Shown here: positions 48,003 through 58,455 of the stretch, piece by piece | Position numbering within the stretch: the first letter of the stretch is position 1 | Layout: each line of letters begins with the position of its first letter | Origin: Candidatus Acidiferrales bacterium | GTDB lineage: Bacteria; Acidobacteriota; Terriglobia; Acidiferrales; UBA7541 | DNA length: 64,000 nucleotides | Assembly (NCBI GenBank): GCA_035934015.1 | Contig: DASYYH010000016.1 | Coordinates: forward strand, 310,001 to 374,000 | Reading direction: 5' to 3' | Program-made: the position numbers and the translations under genes | The notes under the pieces: model-generated | Told to the model about the DNA's origin: nothing | The model's database searches: none | The model's input: only the letters and a program-made list of their open reading frames with translations

Positions 48003-48389
48003 TCACGCGCGCTGTCCGGCGCGGAATTCGTGGCCGCAGACATCGCACGGGCAAATCTCGCGGAGATGCTCAAAGCTGAAGATGCCTGTAGCGTGGCCGT
48101 CGGTGAATTCGATTTGCACGGCGTAACTGCCCACGGCGGCGGCAGACCGTGCAGAAACCTTAGGCTTAAACATGGGCAGGGCGGACGAGACAGAGTCCGT
48201 ACCCGAGCCGCCCCGGGCATGTTCGCCGTGGCCTTCCTTGCATGTGGCGCAGGGACAGTGCTCCCTGAGATAGGCAAAAGCGTAGTGACTTGAATGGGCG
48301 TCGGACCAAGTGATGTCTATTCCGGTGCCTGTGGAAACATGAACTTTCACATCGATTGGTTTCTTGCGAATGTCGAGAGGAATGGGCAT
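48003..48389 (-). CDS. DUF971 family protein
   Basis: The 128-residue protein has two DUF971-like halves: GIDITWSDAHSSHYAFAYLR, EHCPCATC, and then YAVQIEFTDGHATGIFSFEH, LREICPCDVCG. The CPCATC and CPCDVC pairs may bind metal. DUF971 occurs alone and fused to enzymes of iron-sulfur and Mrp-type proteins, and its role is unclear. ATG at 48389 overlaps the stop of the ATPase-DtxR gene by one base, so it belongs to the iron operon. Confidence 0.82.
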   Translation of the reverse strand: MPIPLDIRKKPIDVKVHVSTGTGIDITWSDAHSSHYAFAYLREHCPCATCKEGHGEHARGGSGTDSVSSALPMFKPKVSARSAAAVGSYAVQIEFTDGHATGIFSFEHLREICPCDVCGHEFRAGQRA

Positions 48390-49480
48390 CAAGAGCTTTT
48401 GTTTACGGTGGATCCCGCCGAAGCACAGCAGGGGCCGGGGGGGATTGGGCGACCGTGAGGGCACGTCTTCGGATGGCCGAGGAAGGAGCAGATCCGCTCG
48501 TCGAGCTCCGGACTGATAATGTGCTCGAATTTGCAGGCTTGTGAATCGGCTTCTGCATTGGCGATGGAAAATGTATCGGTGAAGAGGCGCTCTGCGAGAC
48601 GACGGCGACGGACGACATCGCGGGCGCGGCGAGTGCCACGATCGGTCAAATCAACTTCAGAATCTTGTACGGTGACGAGACCAAGAACGGCGAGGCGCTG
48701 AATCGTGCGCTCGGGGTCGGCATCCAGCGAATGGAAACGGGTGAGTTTGGCACGCCTACCAATCTCCGCACAAAGCCACAGCTCTTCGAGGACATGATCG
48801 AAACGCGCTTCATCTTCCGAGGAATATACGGTGATTTGCGCGAGGCGGCCATGAGCGAGTTCGATGCGGCGATCGGCAAGACCGCCGATGGACGGATCAT
48901 GGGTGACCATGAGAATCGTATGGCCCTCACTGTGGAGATCTCGCAAGAGGCGAATGACCGTTTCTTCGTTCGTTTCATCAAGATTACCAGTGGGTTCATC
49001 CGCGAGAATCAATTTGGGATGATTGATGAGCGCGCGAGCAACGGCGACGCGCTGCTGTTCACCTCCAGAGAGCTGGGATGGAAGATGCGCGAGGCGCTCG
49101 CCGAGGCCAACGCGGCGGAGAGCCTCGGCGGCTTCAGTTTCATCCGTCGTGCTGTGAAAATACTGTGCCAGCATGACATTCTCGACGGCCGTAAGATAGG
49201 GGACGAGGTGGAATTGCTGAAAGACGAATCCAATTTTTTCGGAGCGGAATCGAGTTAGGGCAGCCTCATCGAGGCGACCGACGTCAACTGTATCAACAAC
49301 GGCGCGGCCCTCGGTAGGAGTATCGAGGCCACCGAGAATGTTGATTAGCGTGGTCTTACCAGAGCCGGATGGGCCCATAATGGCAATCCACTCGCCGGAC
49401 TCGATGGTGAAAGAAATGTCGTCAAGCGCACGTACGTCGCCAAAGCGTTTTTTCAGGTTTGCGACTTCGACGAGTGCCAC
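48389..49480 (-). CDS. ABC transporter ATPase fused to a DtxR-type metalloregulator domain
   Basis: Residues 1 to about 225 are a LolD/MacB-class ATPase: Walker A GPSGSGKTT, Q-loop VFQQFH, signature LSGGEQQRVAVARALI, Walker B LILADEPTGNLD, H-loop MVTHD. From about 230 to the end there is a winged-helix-like segment (FDHVLEELWLCAEIGRRAKL, then RTIQRLAVLGLV) followed by the DtxR dimerisation and metal site RRRRLAERLFTDTF, ACKFEHIISPELDERICSFL and CPHGRPIPPG. The DtxR site-2 ligands Cys, Glu and His (C-x-x-E-H) are kept, while the first His of site 1 is Arg. The gene sits 4 bases after the second permease. One polypeptide may therefore both energise the transporter and sense metal or regulate. 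Confidence 0.88.
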   Translation of the reverse strand: MALVEVANLKKRFGDVRALDDISFTIESGEWIAIMGPSGSGKTTLINILGGLDTPTEGRAVVDTVDVGRLDEAALTRFRSEKIGFVFQQFHLVPYLTAVENVMLAQYFHSTTDETEAAEALRRVGLGERLAHLPSQLSGGEQQRVAVARALINHPKLILADEPTGNLDETNEETVIRLLRDLHSEGHTILMVTHDPSIGGLADRRIELAHGRLAQITVYSSEDEARFDHVLEELWLCAEIGRRAKLTRFHSLDADPERTIQRLAVLGLVTVQDSEVDLTDRGTRRARDVVRRRRLAERLFTDTFSIANAEADSQACKFEHIISPELDERICSFLGHPKTCPHGRPIPPGPCCASAGSTVNKSS

Positions 49481-49484
49481 GGAA

Positions 49485-50621
49485 TCAGTCTCCTCTTAAG
49501 ATTACGGCCGGACGAACATTGCCGAGCAAGCGCAGAGGCAGCGCGCCAGCGAGAGCGACAAACAACATCAAGATAACGGTTACGGGCAAAACTTCCCAGC
49601 GCGGCGAAATACTTGCACCAAAAACGCGATGCCCCATCCAAACGGAGAGCGCCATTCCGAGCGCGTAACCGGCCACTCCGCCGATGGACGCAAGGACGCC
49701 GACTTCGGCAAGAAACAAACGCACCACTCTTTGAATCGAGCCCCCAAGGGCTTTCATCAGGCCGACATCCTTGCGGCGTTCCATCGCCAAAGCGGCCATC
49801 GTAGCCAGCACACAGAGCGCGGTGAGGACGAGAATGAGCAAGCCGGTGGAGAAAATTAGAAAGCGAATGCGTGCAAGAAGCCTGCCCTCGGCCTCTGTGA
49901 TTTGCGGAATGGGCTTAACCTCAAGCGACGAAAAGGCCGATTGAAGACGCAAGGCGGCGGCACGAACCTGACTTGCAGAGCCAGGAACGCTTAACTGAAT
50001 CAGTTGGATTTTATTGTCCAGCGAAGCAAGCTGCTGCGCGACGGAAAGATTGACAAAAATCTGGCTGTCTTCCGACCCTCCTGCGTCAATGACACCAGCG
50101 ACAGTGAACCGCGCGCTGCGGCCTTGATAGAACAGTTGAACTGAGCTTCCTGGAGTAAGACCGAGGCTCCGGCTGGCATTACGCCCAACGAAGCAGTCCG
50201 TAAGATCGCCGCGCGAAAGCGACGAATCGCCCGCGATTTTCCACCACGGCTCGATCCGCGTGACAGCGTCGAGCCATGTGCCGGCGACGACGACATTTTG
50301 GCCGGTCTTCGAATTTGCATTTGCGACAAGATAGAGATACGGAGAAGCGACGAGGCCCGGCAATTTCGTCTGTGCAACCGTTTGCATGGCAGATTCGCCG
50401 AAAAGAACGGAACTATCGAGGGTGGACGCGCCAGCGTTCGATGCAGATATGATGAGATTCGCACCGAGGGAACGGAATTCCTGAGATAGTTTACGATTGA
50501 TGTCGAGATCGAGATTCAGGAGCGCGGAAATAACCGCACCGCCACTGGTGAGCGCGAGAAGCGCAACAATGAAACGAACTCGATTGCCGCGGAGGAGATG
50601 AAATAAAAGCCGCTTGAACAC
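49485..50621 (-). CDS. FtsX-like ABC permease 2 of the iron operon
   Basis: The 378-residue permease starts with GTG at 50621, overlapping the upstream stop by one base. It has an N-terminal helix (RFIVALLALTSGGAVISALL), a MacB-like periplasmic domain (about residues 40-240), and three C-terminal helices (FSTGLLILVLTALCVLATMA, LAEVGVLASIGGVAGYALGM, VTVILMLFVALAGALPLRLL). With the partner permease and ATPase-DtxR it forms an ABC complex of the type found beside FTR1/DUF2318 iron systems in Campylobacter-like p19 loci. The role there is thought to support ferrous iron uptake. Confidence 0.88.
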   Translation of the reverse strand: MFKRLLFHLLRGNRVRFIVALLALTSGGAVISALLNLDLDINRKLSQEFRSLGANLIISASNAGASTLDSSVLFGESAMQTVAQTKLPGLVASPYLYLVANANSKTGQNVVVAGTWLDAVTRIEPWWKIAGDSSLSRGDLTDCFVGRNASRSLGLTPGSSVQLFYQGRSARFTVAGVIDAGGSEDSQIFVNLSVAQQLASLDNKIQLIQLSVPGSASQVRAAALRLQSAFSSLEVKPIPQITEAEGRLLARIRFLIFSTGLLILVLTALCVLATMAALAMERRKDVGLMKALGGSIQRVVRLFLAEVGVLASIGGVAGYALGMALSVWMGHRVFGASISPRWEVLPVTVILMLFVALAGALPLRLLGNVRPAVILRGD

Positions 50622-51913
50622 TATTCGCCTCTCAGAATCGGCGCAGGAGAAACGTTCGCGGCGCGATGAAGGGGAATCCAGCTCCCGATCAAGGCAACCA
50701 GAGCGGCGGCGATGAGGATTACGGGCAATACAACCAAGCGCGGAGATGTAGCGACACCGAAGACGGTTTCGCCGAGTTGACGCGCGAGCCCCGCACCGAA
50801 CAAAAAACCGATGCCTCCGCCGACAATCGCAAGAAGCAACTGTTCACTCACAAAAAGACCGCTGACGAGAAAATTGGTCGCGCCGAGGGCTTTCATCAAT
50901 GCGACTTCCGCGCGGCGCTCAATCGCCGTGGTCGCGGAAGTGGCCCCAACTGCCAAAGCGACGGCAATCAACGCAGCAATGGTCACGATCCAGAGGAGCA
51001 GGCTAACACGAGAGAGAATGCGGCCCTCGGTTTCGGCAACACGGCGAATCGTTTGCACCTGCGTTCCAGGGAGAACCTGCTGAATCTGATGGCCAATCGA
51101 GGAGATATAAGGCGAACAATACCAGCGGTCAAACTCTGTCGGCGTCATCGAATTGGGATCTTTGATGGCGAGCGCGTCGGCGGGCTTTGTGAGGGCGCTG
51201 ACAAGGACCTGGCGAAACTCATCGGGCTTGGCGGCCAAATCCTGCGCAACCACGAGCGGGCAAACGATAGCGTTGTCTTCCGCGTCGCCAGTCGTGATGA
51301 TTCCGGTAACGGTGGAAGCCGACGCGCGGCCCGAAGCACTGAGATTAAGAACGTCACCGATGGAGATTTCTTCCGTCTTCGCGAGTAAAGCGCCAACAAC
51401 GCAATTCTTTGAACCGTCGGCGAACCACTGACCGCTGATCTTCCACCATGGATGTGTGAAGCTTGCGCCAGTGGTGAAGGTTGTGCCGTCTGCGAGGGGC
51501 ACAGCGTGGCTGTACCACGTGCCAACGAGCATGGCGGGAAAATTCTGCGGAGGCCCGGCGTTGTGCGCGATAGCGCCCGTAACGGGCACGTCCAGAAACG
51601 GTGTGAAACCGAGAATATTGTGCCGCCAAAAAATTTCCTTGAGTTTGGGCAAATCTGACACGGGAAGGTACGCGCCTTGATCGACCGGGCGATAGTCGAC
51701 TCCTCCAATCTCAACGGGAAGTGTGTCTGCCTGTGGTGTGATGAGCAGGTTCGCGCCGAGACTACGGAATTCCCGCGCGAGCTGATCGCCAACGTCCACG
51801 GCAACAGTGAACGTAGCGGTGGCGACAGTCATGCCAAGGACGAGCGCAATCCCCGTGAGGAGCTTACGGCGAGGATTGCGCGTGAAGGATTCGCGGAGCA
51901 GGCGCACGAACAT
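50621..51913 (-). CDS. FtsX-like ABC permease 1 of the iron operon
   Basis: The 430-residue permease has an N-terminal helix (LLTGIALVLGMTVATATFTV), a periplasmic domain of about 240 residues, then helices LLLWIVTIAALIAVALAVGA, QLLLAIVGGGIGFLFGAGLA and LPVILIAAALVALIGSWIPL. It ends NVSPAPILRGE, the usual FtsX terminus. It is paralogous to the next gene. ATG at 51913 is 12 bases after the stop of the FTR1 fusion gene. Confidence 0.88.
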   Translation of the reverse strand: MFVRLLRESFTRNPRRKLLTGIALVLGMTVATATFTVAVDVGDQLAREFRSLGANLLITPQADTLPVEIGGVDYRPVDQGAYLPVSDLPKLKEIFWRHNILGFTPFLDVPVTGAIAHNAGPPQNFPAMLVGTWYSHAVPLADGTTFTTGASFTHPWWKISGQWFADGSKNCVVGALLAKTEEISIGDVLNLSASGRASASTVTGIITTGDAEDNAIVCPLVVAQDLAAKPDEFRQVLVSALTKPADALAIKDPNSMTPTEFDRWYCSPYISSIGHQIQQVLPGTQVQTIRRVAETEGRILSRVSLLLWIVTIAALIAVALAVGATSATTAIERRAEVALMKALGATNFLVSGLFVSEQLLLAIVGGGIGFLFGAGLARQLGETVFGVATSPRLVVLPVILIAAALVALIGSWIPLHRAANVSPAPILRGE

Positions 51914-51925
51914 GGCGGTTTTAGC

Positions 51926-53188
51926 CTATTTGCCTATCTCGGAGGCAGCTTCCGAGATGGCGGAGAGATTCACGACGATGTTTGCGCCCTCGATCAGAGA
52001 TTTGAAGGCAATCGGATTGCAGCCGCCGGGCTGGCCGATTTCCGACGCGTTAATGGGCGCACCGCAATTGCGGCAAATCAACATTGATCCCTGCTGGCGA
52101 TAACCGATCGCGCCACAAATCTGGCAGGCATCGAGAGCAGCGACGTAATCTCCGTTAGGCTTGCGGACGACGATGAAACGGAACGAAACGCCTTGCACAT
52201 CGACGGAAAAAAAACGTACGCTGACGCCACTCATGTCCGCAAGCGAAATGCGAACGGCGCTGTTCGCGGCAAGCAGCTTTTCCGCTTCCGGCGGCGCGGC
52301 AGATGCGCGCGTATAAACGAATTCCGCGGTAAGCGAGAGAATTACAACAACGCAAACAAATGCGGCGGCCAGGCTCCAAATTCGCCGGCGGCGATGCTCA
52401 TACTGGCGCAAGCGTTTTTCGGCTGAATTAGCGGCCTGCTCCACAGCGGCGCCGCGAAGCGCAAACCATTCGCGCAAGACCACGACTGCGGCGACACCTA
52501 GGATGACAACGAAGAAGAAATATTCGTTGCGGACAATCGGGCCGACGGTGGCCATTTCCTGCTTGCTGGAAGGAATCCATCTTCCCTCGCTCAGCTCGTG
52601 AAGGCCAGTCAGGACGAGCTGAAAAGCGACGACCATTAGGATGGCGCTGGTGGCGGCGAAAAATCGCCCCAGGGGAATCTTCAATGTTCCCTCGAAGAAG
52701 AAAAGACCGACGGCCACGGCCAGAGCGATGCCCAACCCTGCGCCGATCCAAACCTGGACTCCTGCGACGGAAAGCTCCACGGCGCGAAGAATGACGACCA
52801 GCTCGGCGCCCTCGCGAAGAACCATCAAAAAAACGAAAAGGCCGATCCCGAGGCCCGCGGCCAGCTCACTTTTTTGCGTGAAGGAATCAACGCGTTGTTC
52901 GATTTCCTTGCGCAAGCGGCGGGCGATGCGGTTCATCCAAATGATCATCGTCACGACAAAAACGGCAGCGAGAAGCATCAAGAGGCCTTCGAAACCATCT
53001 TCGCTGATCTGCCAGTGCTGAAGCATAACGGCAGCGACGACGCTGCAAGCGACGGCAGCAACGACGCCGGTCCAAACATAACGAGTCAGCTCGCGACGAC
53101 CGATACGATTGAGGTAGACTAGGACGATGCCGACGACGAGAGCGGCTTCGACACCTTCGCGAAGCGCAAGTAAAAGAGCAGGAATCAT
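51926..53188 (-). CDS. FTR1-type iron permease fused to FtrD-like (DUF2318) iron-binding domain
   Basis: From ATG 53188 the product has about 420 residues. The N-terminal membrane part (about residues 1-270) has both REGxE-type motifs of FTR1 permeases, ALREGVEAALVVGIVLVYLN and FLMVLREGAELVVIL, which carry iron through the membrane. After another helix (WSLAAAFVCVVVILSLTAEF) a C-terminal DUF2318/FtrD domain contains FFSVDVQGVSFRFIVVRKPN and the pairs CQICG and CRNCG with the tail GGCNPI. Both parts exist as separate genes in Bordetella FtrABCD and Campylobacter p19 loci. It heads the five-gene iron operon. The frame is open to 53257 but MIPALLLALREG is the normal N-terminus. Confidence 0.9.
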   Translation of the reverse strand: MIPALLLALREGVEAALVVGIVLVYLNRIGRRELTRYVWTGVVAAVACSVVAAVMLQHWQISEDGFEGLLMLLAAVFVVTMIIWMNRIARRLRKEIEQRVDSFTQKSELAAGLGIGLFVFLMVLREGAELVVILRAVELSVAGVQVWIGAGLGIALAVAVGLFFFEGTLKIPLGRFFAATSAILMVVAFQLVLTGLHELSEGRWIPSSKQEMATVGPIVRNEYFFFVVILGVAAVVVLREWFALRGAAVEQAANSAEKRLRQYEHRRRRIWSLAAAFVCVVVILSLTAEFVYTRASAAPPEAEKLLAANSAVRISLADMSGVSVRFFSVDVQGVSFRFIVVRKPNGDYVAALDACQICGAIGYRQQGSMLICRNCGAPINASEIGQPGGCNPIAFKSLIEGANIVVNLSAISEAASEIGK

Positions 53189-53198
53189 AAGGAATCCC

Positions 53199-53257
53199 AG
53201 TTGAGACCTTGTTTCAACTAGAAATTCGAGTGTATCTCTCTTCTTAGCAATCGTCAA
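53199..53257 (-). promoter_or_regulatory. Promoter and inverted-repeat operator of the iron operon
   Basis: On the minus strand TTGACG (53257-53252) and TACACT (53234-53229) are separated by exactly 17 bases. Just downstream, covering the expected transcription start, is the inverted repeat AGTTGAGA-CCTTG-TTTCAACT (53199-53219, 7 of 8 positions paired). This is a good position for repression, possibly by the DtxR-type domain encoded in the operon. The repeat does not resemble the known DtxR or Fur consensus. Confidence 0.6.
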
Positions 53258-53361
53258 GAGAAATACCCTACATTCGATAGACTTTCGTTCCGTCGTTGCA
53301 GCGATTGCCTAGCGAGGGCAGTAAAGTGGCGCTGGTGACTTGTGATTTGCGGAGGTTGGGC

Positions 53362-54129
53362 ATGACGAAAGCAAGCAAGCGGACGCTCGCGGTCGCAGCA
53401 GCAATTGCCATTTGGATGGGTTTGCCAGCGAGGAGCAGAGCACAATCTTCGACGCAAGTGCAATACCAAAGCGGAAATACGACAGTGACCGCCTACCTGG
53501 CGCTCCCCCGTTCGCAGGGAGAGCATCCAGCAATCATCGTGATTCACGAATGGTGGGGATTGAATGATTGGGTGCGGCAGCAAGCAGGCAAGTTCGCAGA
53601 CCAGGGATATATAGCTCTGGCTGTGGACCTTTACCGAGGCCAAATAGCAACGGATCCGGAGACGGCGCATGAATTGTCGCGCGGCATGCCGCAAGATCGC
53701 GCCGTTGCTGATTTGAAAGCTGCCTTCGATTACTTAGTCTCGCGGCACGACGTGGAGGCGGACAAAATTGGCGTGGTAGGGTGGTGCATGGGGGGCGGGT
53801 ATGCGATTCTGCTTGCGGAGAATGAGCCCAAACTTGCGGCGTGCGCGGTGAATTACGGAGCGCTGCCGACTGACCCCACGAACATCGCGAGGATCAAGGC
53901 GCCGGTGCTCGGAAACTTTGGCGCGGAAGACCACGGAATTCCGCAGTCCGCCGTAAATGCCTTCGTGGCAGAGATGAAGGCGCAAGGGAAGTCTGTGGAC
54001 GTGAAGATTTACGATGGCGCGGGACATGCGTTTGAGAACCCGGATGATGTGGCCGGATACCGTCCTGAGGCGGCAAAGGATGCGTGGAGCCGCATGCTAG
54101 CATTTTTCAATTCTATGCTGGAGCAATAA
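53362..54129 (+). CDS. Dienelactone hydrolase family protein (exported)
   Basis: The 255-residue alpha/beta hydrolase has a signal peptide (LAVAAAIAIWMGLPARSRAQ). The dienelactone hydrolase motifs are IVIHEWWGLNDWVRQQAGKF, the nucleophile elbow GVVGWCMGGGYA with Cys in place of Ser, FGAEDHGIP with the Asp, and GAGHAFENPDD with the His, which make the Cys-Asp-His triad. Natural substrate is unknown. An export signal is unusual compared with catabolic cytoplasmic enzymes. ATG at 53362 follows GGAGG. Confidence 0.9.
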   Translation: MTKASKRTLAVAAAIAIWMGLPARSRAQSSTQVQYQSGNTTVTAYLALPRSQGEHPAIIVIHEWWGLNDWVRQQAGKFADQGYIALAVDLYRGQIATDPETAHELSRGMPQDRAVADLKAAFDYLVSRHDVEADKIGVVGWCMGGGYAILLAENEPKLAACAVNYGALPTDPTNIARIKAPVLGNFGAEDHGIPQSAVNAFVAEMKAQGKSVDVKIYDGAGHAFENPDDVAGYRPEAAKDAWSRMLAFFNSMLEQ

Positions 54130-54376: not shown

Positions 54377-57376
54377 TTGCACGTAAAGGCTCCCATAGGA
54401 CTCGTCATTTGCGCTCTGCTGGGCGCCGCGCTGGCGGAAGGGCAATCGTCCGTGAACACGGTTCCTGCTCAAGTCTCAAAGCAAGAATCGGCACAAACGG
54501 GATCGGATAAACAAACATCCGGAACGACGGCGCAAAAAGCGCATAGCCAAGTGCAAAATCCGAAACTTGCACGAGAGGCCTTTCAGCGCGGCCTGAAAAC
54601 AGAAAAGGCCAAAGACTGGGACAGCGCGTTCGCGGCATATACGGAAGCCACCAGACAGGATCCGGCGAACCAAGAGTATCTGCTGCGGCGCGAAATCGCA
54701 CGGAGCCGGTTGGTTGGCGAGGCAGTGGATCGGGCCGAACGTGACGCCCTAATGGGCAATTTGGCCGAAGCGCGAAAAGAGCTGCGAATGGCGCTCATTC
54801 TGGACCCCAGCGACACAATGGTGCGGGAGCGGCTGACGCAACTTTCTCCATCATCCGCGAATTCGCTGCGCCAACTGATGATCGAACCAGCCGGCGTTGT
54901 GAGGCTCGCGCCGTTCCGTGGCGTGTTAAATTTTGATTATCGCGGCGATACGCAGGGCGCCTACGAAGAAGTTGCACAAAGGTTCGGAGTGGATGCATCG
55001 TTCGATGGGGGACTGCGCCAGATACAAGTGCACCTTCAGCTGAACAATGTGGACTTTTACACCGCTATGCGCGCGCTCGGCGACATGACCGGAACGTTCT
55101 GGCGGCCGCTGACACAGCGACTTTTTTTCGTGGCCGAGGACACTCCTGCCAAACGGCGGGAGTACGACCTTTCCGTTGTGCGCACCGTGCAACTGCCCGA
55201 TGACGAGACTCCGAACGATATGACGGAAGTCCTGCGCGTGTTGCGTGAAATCGCTGGGATCACACGAGCGCAGCTGAATCTTGCCTCACATACGATCACG
55301 ATGCACGCGTCGCCACAGGCCACGTCCGTGGCGGCGCAATTGCTCGATCAATTGGAGCAAGCCCACGGTCAGCTGGTGATCGAAATGGAGATACTCGAAG
55401 TCGATCGCACAACGGCGACACAATTCGGAGTGACACCGCCGACGACGGCACAGGCCTTCGCGCTGACACCGCAGGAAATTCAAGAGGCCCAGGCTGGAGG
55501 CTCGTCGCTGATCAGCGCGATCGAGCAGGTTTTCGGTTCGTCGAGCGCGCTCGGAGCCCTGAGCACAGGGCAGATTTCCTCGCTGGTGGGGTCGGGAGCT
55601 GTTGGGCTTGGTTCGCTCATACCACCGCTGGTGGCATTCGGCGGTGGCAAGACGACATTTCTGGCTACCTTACCGGGCGCTGCGGCAGCGTTCTCCGACA
55701 CACTGAGCACAGTGAAGAGCGGCCAGAGGATTGTGTTGCGTGCAGAGGACGACCAGCCGGTATCGTTCTTCGTGGGAGACCGCGTGCCAATTACGCTGGC
55801 ACAATATTCCTCAAGTGTGGTCCCTTCGGGGCTGGTTCCTGGCGTGTCGTCGAATATGTTTCCGGAGTCGACAATCGCCACGGGGAACGATCCGGTTGCC
55901 GTGGTAACCGCGGATTTCAACGGAGACGGAAATCTGGATATGGCCGTCGCGAATTTCAAGGACAACACGGTTTCCATCTACCTGGGTAATGGCGACGGAA
56001 CATTCAGTTCGAATGGGACGCTTGCGACAGGCAACGGGCCAATCACGCTTGCCACAGCTGATTTCAACGGCGACGGTTTCGTGGATCTGGCGGTCCTCAA
56101 CGAGACGGATAACACTGTCTCGATTTTTCTGGGAAATGGAGACGGAACGTTTGCGCTGAAAGGAACTTATGCGACAGGTGCAAATCCGGTGGCGATGGTC
56201 ACCGGAGATTTCAATAACGATGGGCATACGGACCTAGCCGTCGCAAATCAAAACGACAGCACAGTGTCGATTCTGCTTGGAAATGGAGATGGAACATTTC
56301 AGCCGCAAAGCACTTTCGCGACCGGGAAAACACCCTCAGCGATTACGACGGCAGATTTCAGCAATAATGGCAATTTGGATCTCGCGGTGACCAATCAGGC
56401 GGCCAACACGCTCTCGACCTTCATGGGCAATGGAAACGGAACGTTTACTGCCAACGGGATCCTAACCACAGGCAACGCGCCCGTGGCGGTTGTATCCGGA
56501 GAATTTGATCTGAACAACAACACAAATATCGACCTGGTCGTGTTGAATCAAACGGACAACACGATATCGGTCTACCTTGGAGCGGGAGACGGGACATTCA
56601 CGCTGACCACGACCTTCGGACTGAATGATGCATCTTCTTCGGGCAACAAACCAGTAGCGATCACCACGGGCGATTTTAATGTCGATGGCCTGACGGACTT
56701 GGCGGTGACGGATGAAGATGCCAACACGGTTGGTGTCTTCATCGGCAATGGCGACGGGACGTTTCAGCTACCGCTGCTTTTTGCGACAGGAACATCGCCG
56801 GTTGGCTTGACGGCTGGCACGTTCGAGGGCACAGCGCACGCACCGGGCCTGGCGATTGCGGATTCGGGCGCAAACACGTTGACGATTATCCTAGACAACG
56901 CGACCTTTGGCTCGACGGGACCCGGCGCCGCGCCGATACCCTACCCAAACTCGCAATACCAGGATATCGGATTGAAAGTGAAGGCGACTCCGCACATGCA
57001 CGCAGGAGGCGAGGTGACGCTCGATATGCAATTCGAGTCGACGAGTCTGACTGGCACAACAGTGAATCAGATTCCAATCATCGGCAATGAATCCGTTAGC
57101 CAGACAATTACTGCAAAGGATGGCCAGACGACTGCGCTGGCAGGGATTATCGAATCCAGTGTGATGCGAGCGATCAGCGGGACACCGGGGGCGGAGTTGC
57201 TGGGACCGCTTGGACTGTCCGCGAGCGCGCAAAACGATCAAAATCAAAGCACCGAGTTGCTGATCCTGGTGACGCCGAGGCTTATCCAGCCCCCACCCAG
57301 GATGGGCAAGCCAATTTTTGCAGGACGCGAACCAGTCGAAGGCGGATCTGCGCCCGTGCCCGCGCAGCCACAATAA
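54377..57376 (+). CDS. Secretin-like protein with a seven-repeat FG-GAP propeller inserted in the secretin domain
   Basis: The 999-residue exported protein starts with TTG at 54377 after AGAAGGGA. A signal peptide is followed by a TPR-like region (about 60-150; FQRGLKTEKAKDWDSAFAAY). Next come an STN/N0-like domain (about 180-255; FDYRGDTQGAYEEVAQRFGV) and N1-type and early secretin segments (VRTVQLPDDETPNDMTEVLR, QLVIEMEILEVDRTTATQFG). At about residue 499-843 seven repeats of about 49 residues interrupt the domain (typical unit VAVVTADFNGDGNLDMAV and VSIYLGNGDGTF). The secretin pattern then resumes: YQDIGLKVKATPHMHAGGEV, TLDMQFESTSLTG, IPIIGNESVSQTI and TELLILVTPRLI. FG-GAP repeats usually bind calcium. 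No other secretion gene is adjacent. Confidence 0.88.
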   Translation: MHVKAPIGLVICALLGAALAEGQSSVNTVPAQVSKQESAQTGSDKQTSGTTAQKAHSQVQNPKLAREAFQRGLKTEKAKDWDSAFAAYTEATRQDPANQEYLLRREIARSRLVGEAVDRAERDALMGNLAEARKELRMALILDPSDTMVRERLTQLSPSSANSLRQLMIEPAGVVRLAPFRGVLNFDYRGDTQGAYEEVAQRFGVDASFDGGLRQIQVHLQLNNVDFYTAMRALGDMTGTFWRPLTQRLFFVAEDTPAKRREYDLSVVRTVQLPDDETPNDMTEVLRVLREIAGITRAQLNLASHTITMHASPQATSVAAQLLDQLEQAHGQLVIEMEILEVDRTTATQFGVTPPTTAQAFALTPQEIQEAQAGGSSLISAIEQVFGSSSALGALSTGQISSLVGSGAVGLGSLIPPLVAFGGGKTTFLATLPGAAAAFSDTLSTVKSGQRIVLRAEDDQPVSFFVGDRVPITLAQYSSSVVPSGLVPGVSSNMFPESTIATGNDPVAVVTADFNGDGNLDMAVANFKDNTVSIYLGNGDGTFSSNGTLATGNGPITLATADFNGDGFVDLAVLNETDNTVSIFLGNGDGTFALKGTYATGANPVAMVTGDFNNDGHTDLAVANQNDSTVSILLGNGDGTFQPQSTFATGKTPSAITTADFSNNGNLDLAVTNQAANTLSTFMGNGNGTFTANGILTTGNAPVAVVSGEFDLNNNTNIDLVVLNQTDNTISVYLGAGDGTFTLTTTFGLNDASSSGNKPVAITTGDFNVDGLTDLAVTDEDANTVGVFIGNGDGTFQLPLLFATGTSPVGLTAGTFEGTAHAPGLAIADSGANTLTIILDNATFGSTGPGAAPIPYPNSQYQDIGLKVKATPHMHAGGEVTLDMQFESTSLTGTTVNQIPIIGNESVSQTITAKDGQTTALAGIIESSVMRAISGTPGAELLGPLGLSASAQNDQNQSTELLILVTPRLIQPPPRMGKPIFAGREPVEGGSAPVPAQPQ

Positions 57377-57427: not shown

Positions 57428-58402
57428 TTATCGCGCGACTTCGAGGACGACGACAGGTTGGTAGGTTTGTGGAACAACGGCTTGCGCAATTGCAATGAGC
57501 TGTCCCTGCGCATTGAGGACGCGAAGTCGCGACGGCTTCCAGTCACCCGAATCGAGCTCAGCGGGAGCGCCCTGCGCCAGGGTCGCGTGCCCCGGTCGAA
57601 TTTGCGAGATTGGGACATTGAATTTAGCGCCGTTGCGGATGCGCCGCTCGACGATCGGCAAAACCGTGGCGCACGGAAGATCGGGCAGCAAACCTTCGAG
57701 ACGGATCACGCGTTCGGCAAGACGGCCCGTGCGGGCGGTTTCCGCCAACTCTTCGAGCGAGATGGCCTGATCCAAAGTAAATTCACCGACGGCCGTGCGA
57801 ACGATTTCCGCGAGATGCGCGCCAGAACCCTGAAGTTTGCCAAGATCGTGAGCGAGAGCGCGGATATAAGTTCCTGAGCCGCATTCGACCGTAAACCGTG
57901 CCAGCGAACCTTCAATACCAGTCAAACGAAATTCGTAGACGTCGACTTCAACAGGTTTCAATTCCACAAGCTTTTTCTTGCGCGCCAATTCATGCGCCGC
58001 ATGGCCCCGAATTTTCTTGGCGGAAAACGCGGGAGGGGTCTGTTGAATGTGGCCAACAAAGCCGGCAGCGAGGCGTTCGACTTCTTGCGCATCGAGTCGA
58101 GGAGCGAGATCGGGACCTTGTGACTCGCCGTCAGAGTCGTAGGTGTCCGTCGCAAAGCCAAAACGCACCCCGCAGTTGTAGCGCTTGCGCCGGCCTGCAT
58201 AAAACTGAGCGAGACGGGTCGCCCGGCCAAGGAGCAGCACCAAAACACCAGTAGCCAAGGGATCGAGCGTGCCCAGATGGCCGATCTGACGAAATCCGAC
58301 GAGATGGCGGACGGCTTCGACAACGTCATGCGACGTCTTGCCGCGCGGCTTGTCAATGACAAGCGCGCCGTCGAGGTGCGGTGGTTTTACGGTTCGGGGC
58401 AT
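57428..58402 (-). CDS. truB: tRNA pseudouridine(55) synthase
   Basis: The 324-residue enzyme makes pseudouridine 55 in the T arm of tRNA. Conserved parts: GALVIDKPRGKTSHDVVEAV, the catalytic motif GHLGTLDPLATGVL with Asp47, RRKRYNCGVRFGFATDTYDS, PPAFSAKKIRGHAAHELAR and VECGSGTYIRALAHDLG. The C-terminal PUA-like domain carries the PRTV-proximal tail VVVLEVAR. It lies 53 bases after rbfA in the rimP-nusA-infB-DUF503-rbfA-truB operon. ATG at 58402 is preferred over TTG at 58426. Confidence 0.94.
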   Translation of the reverse strand: MPRTVKPPHLDGALVIDKPRGKTSHDVVEAVRHLVGFRQIGHLGTLDPLATGVLVLLLGRATRLAQFYAGRRKRYNCGVRFGFATDTYDSDGESQGPDLAPRLDAQEVERLAAGFVGHIQQTPPAFSAKKIRGHAAHELARKKKLVELKPVEVDVYEFRLTGIEGSLARFTVECGSGTYIRALAHDLGKLQGSGAHLAEIVRTAVGEFTLDQAISLEELAETARTGRLAERVIRLEGLLPDLPCATVLPIVERRIRNGAKFNVPISQIRPGHATLAQGAPAELDSGDWKPSRLRVLNAQGQLIAIAQAVVPQTYQPVVVLEVAR

Positions 58403-58455
58403 TGTTTTGATCTCGCGTGCTCGCAAAGAAATACGCGGAAGTCCGCAGCGGAACT

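Follow-up and report, generated by a model that had tools for sequence, protein, structure and literature searches.

The gene at positions 54377..57376 (+ strand) of the window, by which we mean the whole 64,000-nucleotide stretch of DNA analyzed here, encodes a 999-amino-acid secretin whose central gate bears a seven-bladed FG-GAP propeller. What is new is the exact insertion site, which is the central gate rather than the apical top gate, and among the matches listed for the open-access literature searched, we found no description of a propeller in a secretin gate. We propose, at about even chances, that the protein is an orphan outer-membrane secretin whose gate propellers project outwards as a crown or lid that seals the pore, binds ligands or does both.

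Domain layout and propeller fold

The open reading frame begins with TTG, and an AAGGG sequence can be seen by eye ~7 bases 5' of this start. Along the protein, with all features on the + strand, a putative signal peptide (approximately residues 1-22, 54377..54442, judged by eye from the sequence) is followed by a TPR-type helical domain (residues 62-167, 54560..54877), an N0-type domain (residues ~184-254, 54926..55138), one ring-building, Secretin_N-like domain (residues ~267-327, 55175..55357), the first half of the secretin domain (residues 332-473, 55370..55795), seven FG-GAP repeats forming the propeller (residues 497-838, 55865..56890) and the second half of the secretin domain (residues 859-971, 56951..57289). 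Linkers join the gate strand to blade 1 (residues 474-496, 55796..55864) and blade 7 to the next gate strand (residues 839-858, 56891..56950); both are taken from the AlphaFold2 model, in which pLDDT drops below 50 over residues 474-490 and 845-858.

Built from 44 sequences, the whole-protein model has a mean pLDDT of 75.7 and is weak in its barrel part (pTM 0.44; 179 of 999 residues below a pLDDT of 50). It contains helices over residues 62-167, secretin strands over 446-473 and long closing strands over 859-971, and the limits of the first secretin half come from alignments as well as from the model. By profile, the protein belongs to the Secretin superfamily: PF00263 matches residues 859-970 at E 5.7e-19 (68.8 bits against a cut-off of 27.5), covering only profile positions 52-168 because the secretin domain is split, and FG-GAP_3 matches seven stretches at E 3e-50. 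Pfam and the model both recover the closing secretin segment, with its LVTPRLI end, that the original prediction had placed after the repeats. That prediction had also placed TPR-like, N0 and N1-like regions ahead of the secretin strands. Here, the N0 region held up, on the strength of the model and of a structure match of L120, a propeller-less relative of 615 amino acids; the TPR region is backed by the model helices and by TPR folds matched by L120, with TPR_2 and TPR_14 matches in the window protein that are weak and under the Pfam cut-off. As for the N1-like region, one ring-building domain is seen between N0 and the barrel (model, Secretin_N in relatives and a structure match), rather than demonstrable separate N1 and N3 domains. 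The L120 model (mean pLDDT 71.4) is itself secretin-like: the protein matches PF00263 over profile positions 16-167 of 169, and the monomer aligns with the GspD, pIV and InvG secretins at Z ~11-12 and rmsd 4 to 18 (6i1y, Z 12.2, rmsd 7.8; 7ofh, Z 12.0, rmsd 4.1), as well as with PilQ (N0) and EscC periplasmic domains and with TPR and BamD folds.

A closed seven-bladed propeller splitting the secretin, as had been anticipated, is borne out by the monomer model, which places 28 strands, or seven times four, within residues 497-838 at a mean pLDDT of ~93 (65-98 as means over 10-residue blocks). Among Foldseek-ranked solved structures the best match is integrin alpha (Z 35.4, rmsd 2.4, 325 residues aligned), and when the complete model was used to search for similar folds, the best 50 matches all fell on the propeller. 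The predicted model therefore has the seven four-stranded blades of an integrin-alpha-type FG-GAP propeller, at Z ~34-35 over some 325 residues; in contrast to integrin alpha, with which it shares only 10-14% identity, the window propeller lies inside a bacterial channel gate. Repeat-profile matches in the near-identical relative L075 run from residues 495-542 to 796-843, and together with the window model they place the predicted limits of the seven units, ~499-843, within a few residues of the right ones.

By sequence motif alone, the strict D.[DN].[DN]G..D calcium motif is found in four of the seven window blades (1, 2, 3 and 6). Across 38 proteins it occurs in one to seven blades per protein, each blade carrying it in 18-26 of the 38, and calcium dependence of the propeller is a prediction from these blade motifs. 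The blades appear only loosely position-specific, because the best match to a blade had the same number in 30% of cases as compared with 14% by chance (150 random pairs from the 38 proteins).

The insertion site in the central gate

Alignment places the insert between the pivot glycines G467 and G865, that is, in the central-gate loop (Gate 1). The reference here is XcpD, for which passages of PMC10550240 give the central gate as residues 466-496, in which G466 is a pivot and the tip includes T477 and S480. The profile of the propeller-less relatives aligns with XcpD across the whole gate, and the letters of the XcpD chain agree at G466, T477, S480 and G496 once the numbering is shifted by a constant 34. 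By these alignments and the XcpD comparison, G467 (FFVGDRVPI; 55775..55777, +) is the equivalent of XcpD G466 and G865 (QDIGLKV; 56969..56971, +) that of G496; both match glycines of the propeller-less relatives, are invariant in 44 aligned sequences and bound a central gate in the window protein. From pivot to pivot there are 29 residues in XcpD and 397 in the window protein, with 35-39 in propeller-less relatives whose locus is partly shared with the window (35 in L068 and L069, 39 in L120 and equally in L065). The linkers flanking the window propeller measure about 27 and 21 residues, and in 35 of 38 proteins tried they measure 22-35 and 14-27 residues. Since the two linkers together approximate one full gate, the propeller sits at the gate's tip, and in the alignment the short loop is cleanly replaced by the propeller.

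An apical reading of the insertion loop was also considered. It was ruled out by the XcpD gate residues and by the published definition of the top gate, given in section 9 of PMC10550240, as the apical region between the [QN]W and [AVMG]LI motifs; the insert lies between the gate pivots and is thus not the apical insert of a top-gated secretin. The "barrel or gate region" of the original prediction can thus be narrowed to the central-gate loop between the pivot glycines, which is distinct from the apical loop that forms the known cap.

The window protein shares N0, a ring-building domain, the secretin domain, pivot glycines and closing strands with T2SS GspD/XcpD (5wln, 5wq7, 5wq8), and differs in the span between its pivots, in its TPR domain before N0 and in the single ring-building domain seen. 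It resembles Vibrio-type top-gated GspD in that a loop of each subunit supplies an extra channel element, but here the insert is a globular domain of 36 kDa placed in the central-gate loop.

Distribution, origin and genomic setting

FG-GAP matches are plentiful in these genomes, with repeat sequence up to ~57% identical to the window (e.g. G012:C32), and could have given rise to an assembly chimera or an accidental fusion of a secretin with an FG-GAP gene. The FG-GAP proteins of related genomes (PF13517/PF01839) share the repeat sequence and probably differ in having no secretin halves, because the junction of blade 7 and secretin (query residues 1-180), searched against 297 genomes of the phylum, was matched end-to-end only in its own genome among the matches listed. 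Those matches include the window's family by its own genome only, and four of them start at query residues 11-16, in frames of 640-718 amino acids.

Against a chimera stand, first, the relatives of the full protein, one of which, from another genome of the genus, is 88% identical over nearly its full length; relatives in ten genomes of the family are 41-48% identical along most of the protein. A protein search gave some match in 61 of 61 genomes, often to the repeats alone, and near-full-length matches at 41-88% identity were found in the window's family. Second, a contig scan that used the N-terminal-half alignment only, so that repeats were not favored, yielded 63 loci, and repeats follow the same N-terminal half in 61 of them, the exceptions being L122, where a contig edge precedes the site, and L120, which has no insert. 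Both secretin halves are at least partly present in 55 of the 63, all with repeats except L120; the other eight comprise seven with repeats before a contig end or broken frame, and L122. Clean empty-site relatives also speak against a chimera, which we regard as exceedingly improbable. No assembly break at the insert borders turned up in the relatives across the 63 loci, and neither did homologues with secretin and repeats in two genes, except for three relatives with broken frames.

The family is essentially one of Acidobacteriota, with 62 of the 63 loci so titled (Acidobacteria, Terriglobia, Candidatus Acidiferrales, Acidiferrum, Acidipila). The one titled Betaproteobacteria, L129:6479-9604, groups inside the propeller secretins of Acidobacteria and is probably a mislabelled metagenome bin. 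Seven repeats were detected in 46 of the 54 loci with both halves and repeats, six in seven and five in one. The set used for the tree, which has 59 propeller rows and nine rows without and includes the window and four further loci (two of them identical to others in the tree columns), gave seven repeats in 51 of the propeller rows, six in seven and five in one. At least in L113, where six were detected, 68 residues are left before the closing half, enough room for a seventh blade.

A scan of 250 genomes of the class matched the N-terminal half at no less than 41% identity in 54 of the 56 listed genomes of the family, 50 of them in frames of 819-1530 amino acids, a length that by itself is no proof of repeats. 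The four shorter frames (616, 620, 698 and 755 amino acids) include those of propeller-less G013 (620) and broken G022 (755). Three genomes from other families of the same order are among the matches listed, with frames of 520-643 amino acids, and matches at 25-34% in other families of the class include frames of up to 1130 amino acids; the three class-level relatives L072, L073 and L074 had no repeat motif. A plasmid search returned 65 records, all below 60% identity, and the best 8 of the 65 were GspD, a T2/T3SS-family protein, a TPR protein or no named feature.

The propeller is absent in the lineage of L120/G013 and G024. A quick tree nests this propeller-less lineage and needs two changes, but the AU test does not reject a topology that groups every propeller protein (p-AU 0.156), making a single gain of the propeller likely, perhaps followed by a loss. 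Pfam identifies two conserved neighbors, a divergent FTR1-FtrD iron permease fusion (51926..53257, -), with FTR1 upstream in 46 of the 53 loci with enough sequence, and a convergent truB (57428..58426, -), followed by rbfA, infB and nusA and present downstream in 43 of 55 loci. Propeller-less secretins share parts of this locus: L068 has both FTR1 and truB, L069 has FTR1 alone, and L070, L071, L065 and L066 have the truB side alone. The FTR1 linkage is therefore either older than the propeller or independent of it. The FTR1-FtrD fusion belongs to an iron-transport-type operon (48389-53257, -) with two FtsX-type permeases and an ABC ATPase, the end of which matches an iron-dependent repressor metal-binding domain (PF02742, E 6e-26). 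Between this operon and the secretin lies a dienelactone hydrolase gene (53296-54129, +), found in the flanks of one of the 63 loci (L075).

Proposed placement and role of the propeller

By score, the window protein is a secretin that is neither GspD nor PilQ: it reaches 64.6 bits for NCBIfam GspD (TIGR02517), far under the cut-off of 351.35, and 49.3 bits for PilQ (TIGR02515; cut-off 284.35). Unlike GspD it has no adjoining T2SS genes, and Pfam analysis of the neighboring genes found neither T2SS nor pilus genes beside the open reading frame, in agreement with the original prediction. Three secretins of this genome score above the Pfam cut-off, and one further, weak match falls short of it. 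The second secretin, which has an AMIN domain, adjoins pilM, pilN and pilO, and the third full one, GspD-like, lies on contig C11 beside two prepilin-like genes (N_methyl match just below the cut-off in one and over it in the other), making the window secretin the orphan of the three. With no obvious machine of its own, it could borrow one; T2SSE and T2SSF genes are found on contig C3, apart from it. The GspD-like secretin (L139:8022-10358, G000:C11) has a C-terminal Cohesin domain (PF00963, E 3.1e-6) and is a second secretin of this genome with an added binding-type domain; among the literature matches listed, nothing on a Cohesin-ended secretin appeared by title.

For the orphan secretin, we infer the usual ring of 12-15 subunits, the side taken by the propellers and their function. 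The gate loops would be held raised, with the propellers passing through the pore and forming a lid or crown outside it. This crown may seal the pore, bind an outside ligand (a polymer, a cell surface or a secreted partner) or both, and ligand binding or release would then move the gate about its glycine pivots. The outward facing of the propeller, like the cap, adhesin or receptor role raised by the original prediction, is hypothetical. The placement follows mainly from bulk. With each propeller of 36 kDa, 12-15 copies would take up 526,000-658,000 Å3 as compared with 382,000-611,000 Å3 for lumen-size cylinders, an estimate that assumes a propeller size and uses the barrel dimensions of another secretin, pIV, from PMC8563730, and an edge-on ring of 12-15 propellers needs a radius of 57-84 Å. 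Packed inside, the propellers would leave next to no space in the lumen or exceed it, and they therefore probably stick out on one side, most likely the outer one. The argument is tight, not absolute, with 12 copies amounting to 86% of the largest lumen volume estimate.

The pattern of selection bears on the crown in two ways. In the eight close pairs for which each of the three parts gave a value, omega is 0.05-0.21 for the propeller and 0.03-0.16 for the secretin halves, with the qualification that four of the eight (L130-L133, L117-L121, L123-L125 and L117-L123) carry Ig-like domains within the stretch counted as propeller; L076-L077 has no value for the C half, and the window-L076 and window-L083 pairs have none in two of the three parts. 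Mean identity over 38 proteins is 0.52 for the N half, 0.45 for the propeller and 0.46 for the C half. The propeller is thus under purifying selection like the secretin halves, which speaks for its being a conserved part of the gate, but this regime, with no excess change, does not look like that of a fast-evolving surface receptor. The incomplete set of strict calcium motifs in the window blades also weighs against a crown, as does the lineage of L120/G013 and G024, which manages without a propeller.

Purifying selection would suit an internal part, such as a periplasmic plug in which the propellers extend downwards from the gate into the vestibule, close or gate the channel from inside and perhaps dock a periplasmic partner. 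Such a plug gains weight because, by the volume estimate, a lumen with 12 copies inside is not strictly impossible, and passages of PMC10550240 place the gate loops inside the lumen in closed secretins. It has to contend with the same tight bulk, made worse by the 150-280 further residues that nine relatives carry between blades, and with the upward pivoting of gate loops on opening described in PMC8563730, which speaks for the crown, and we judge it a genuine possibility, though on the unlikely side.

Those further residues contain Ig-like domains (He_PIG or Big_2), found between blades in at least nine of the 59 propeller proteins by a Pfam scan of 17 of the 59, mostly those with long inserts, and absent from eight of the 17, window included. 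He_PIG occurs in seven (L101, L114, L117, L121, L123, L125 and L135), in six of them in the gap from the third to the fourth detected repeat and in L114 in that from the second to the third; two others (L130 and L133) have three Big_2 between the first and second detected repeats. Extra domains between blades are a further likeness to integrin alpha, since the I domain sits between propeller blades in some integrins. Ig-like modules of these types are typical of surface proteins and in this way suit an outer crown. Their presence in some relatives would fit a secretin ring that transports no substrate and only anchors displayed propellers, as an adhesin or binding scaffold, and so would the lack of adjoining T2SS or pilus genes and the position of the genome's two other full secretins beside pilMNO and two prepilin-like genes. 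Yet N0 and the ring-building domain, normal docks for inner-membrane partners, are kept along with both pivot glycines, and parts of the locus are also retained by relatives without a propeller, making a mere anchor unlikely. If the propellers do form an outer crown, an integrin-like receptor, extended by Ig-like domains in some relatives, would sit on a moving gate at the cell surface, where an outside ligand could directly open or lock the channel, an idea that we advance tentatively and consider doubtful.

In conclusion, it is still debated how secretins, giant channels of the outer membrane, remain closed and yet let big cargo pass. The central gate is the closing element common to them, and a natural family with a 36 kDa ligand-binding-type domain in this gate would show that it tolerates huge insertions. 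With the propeller-less relatives serving as natural controls, these proteins would allow gating and outward display to be tested directly and provide a possible engineering site for display or nanopore lids, and the gate of this family may also serve to bind or to seal.
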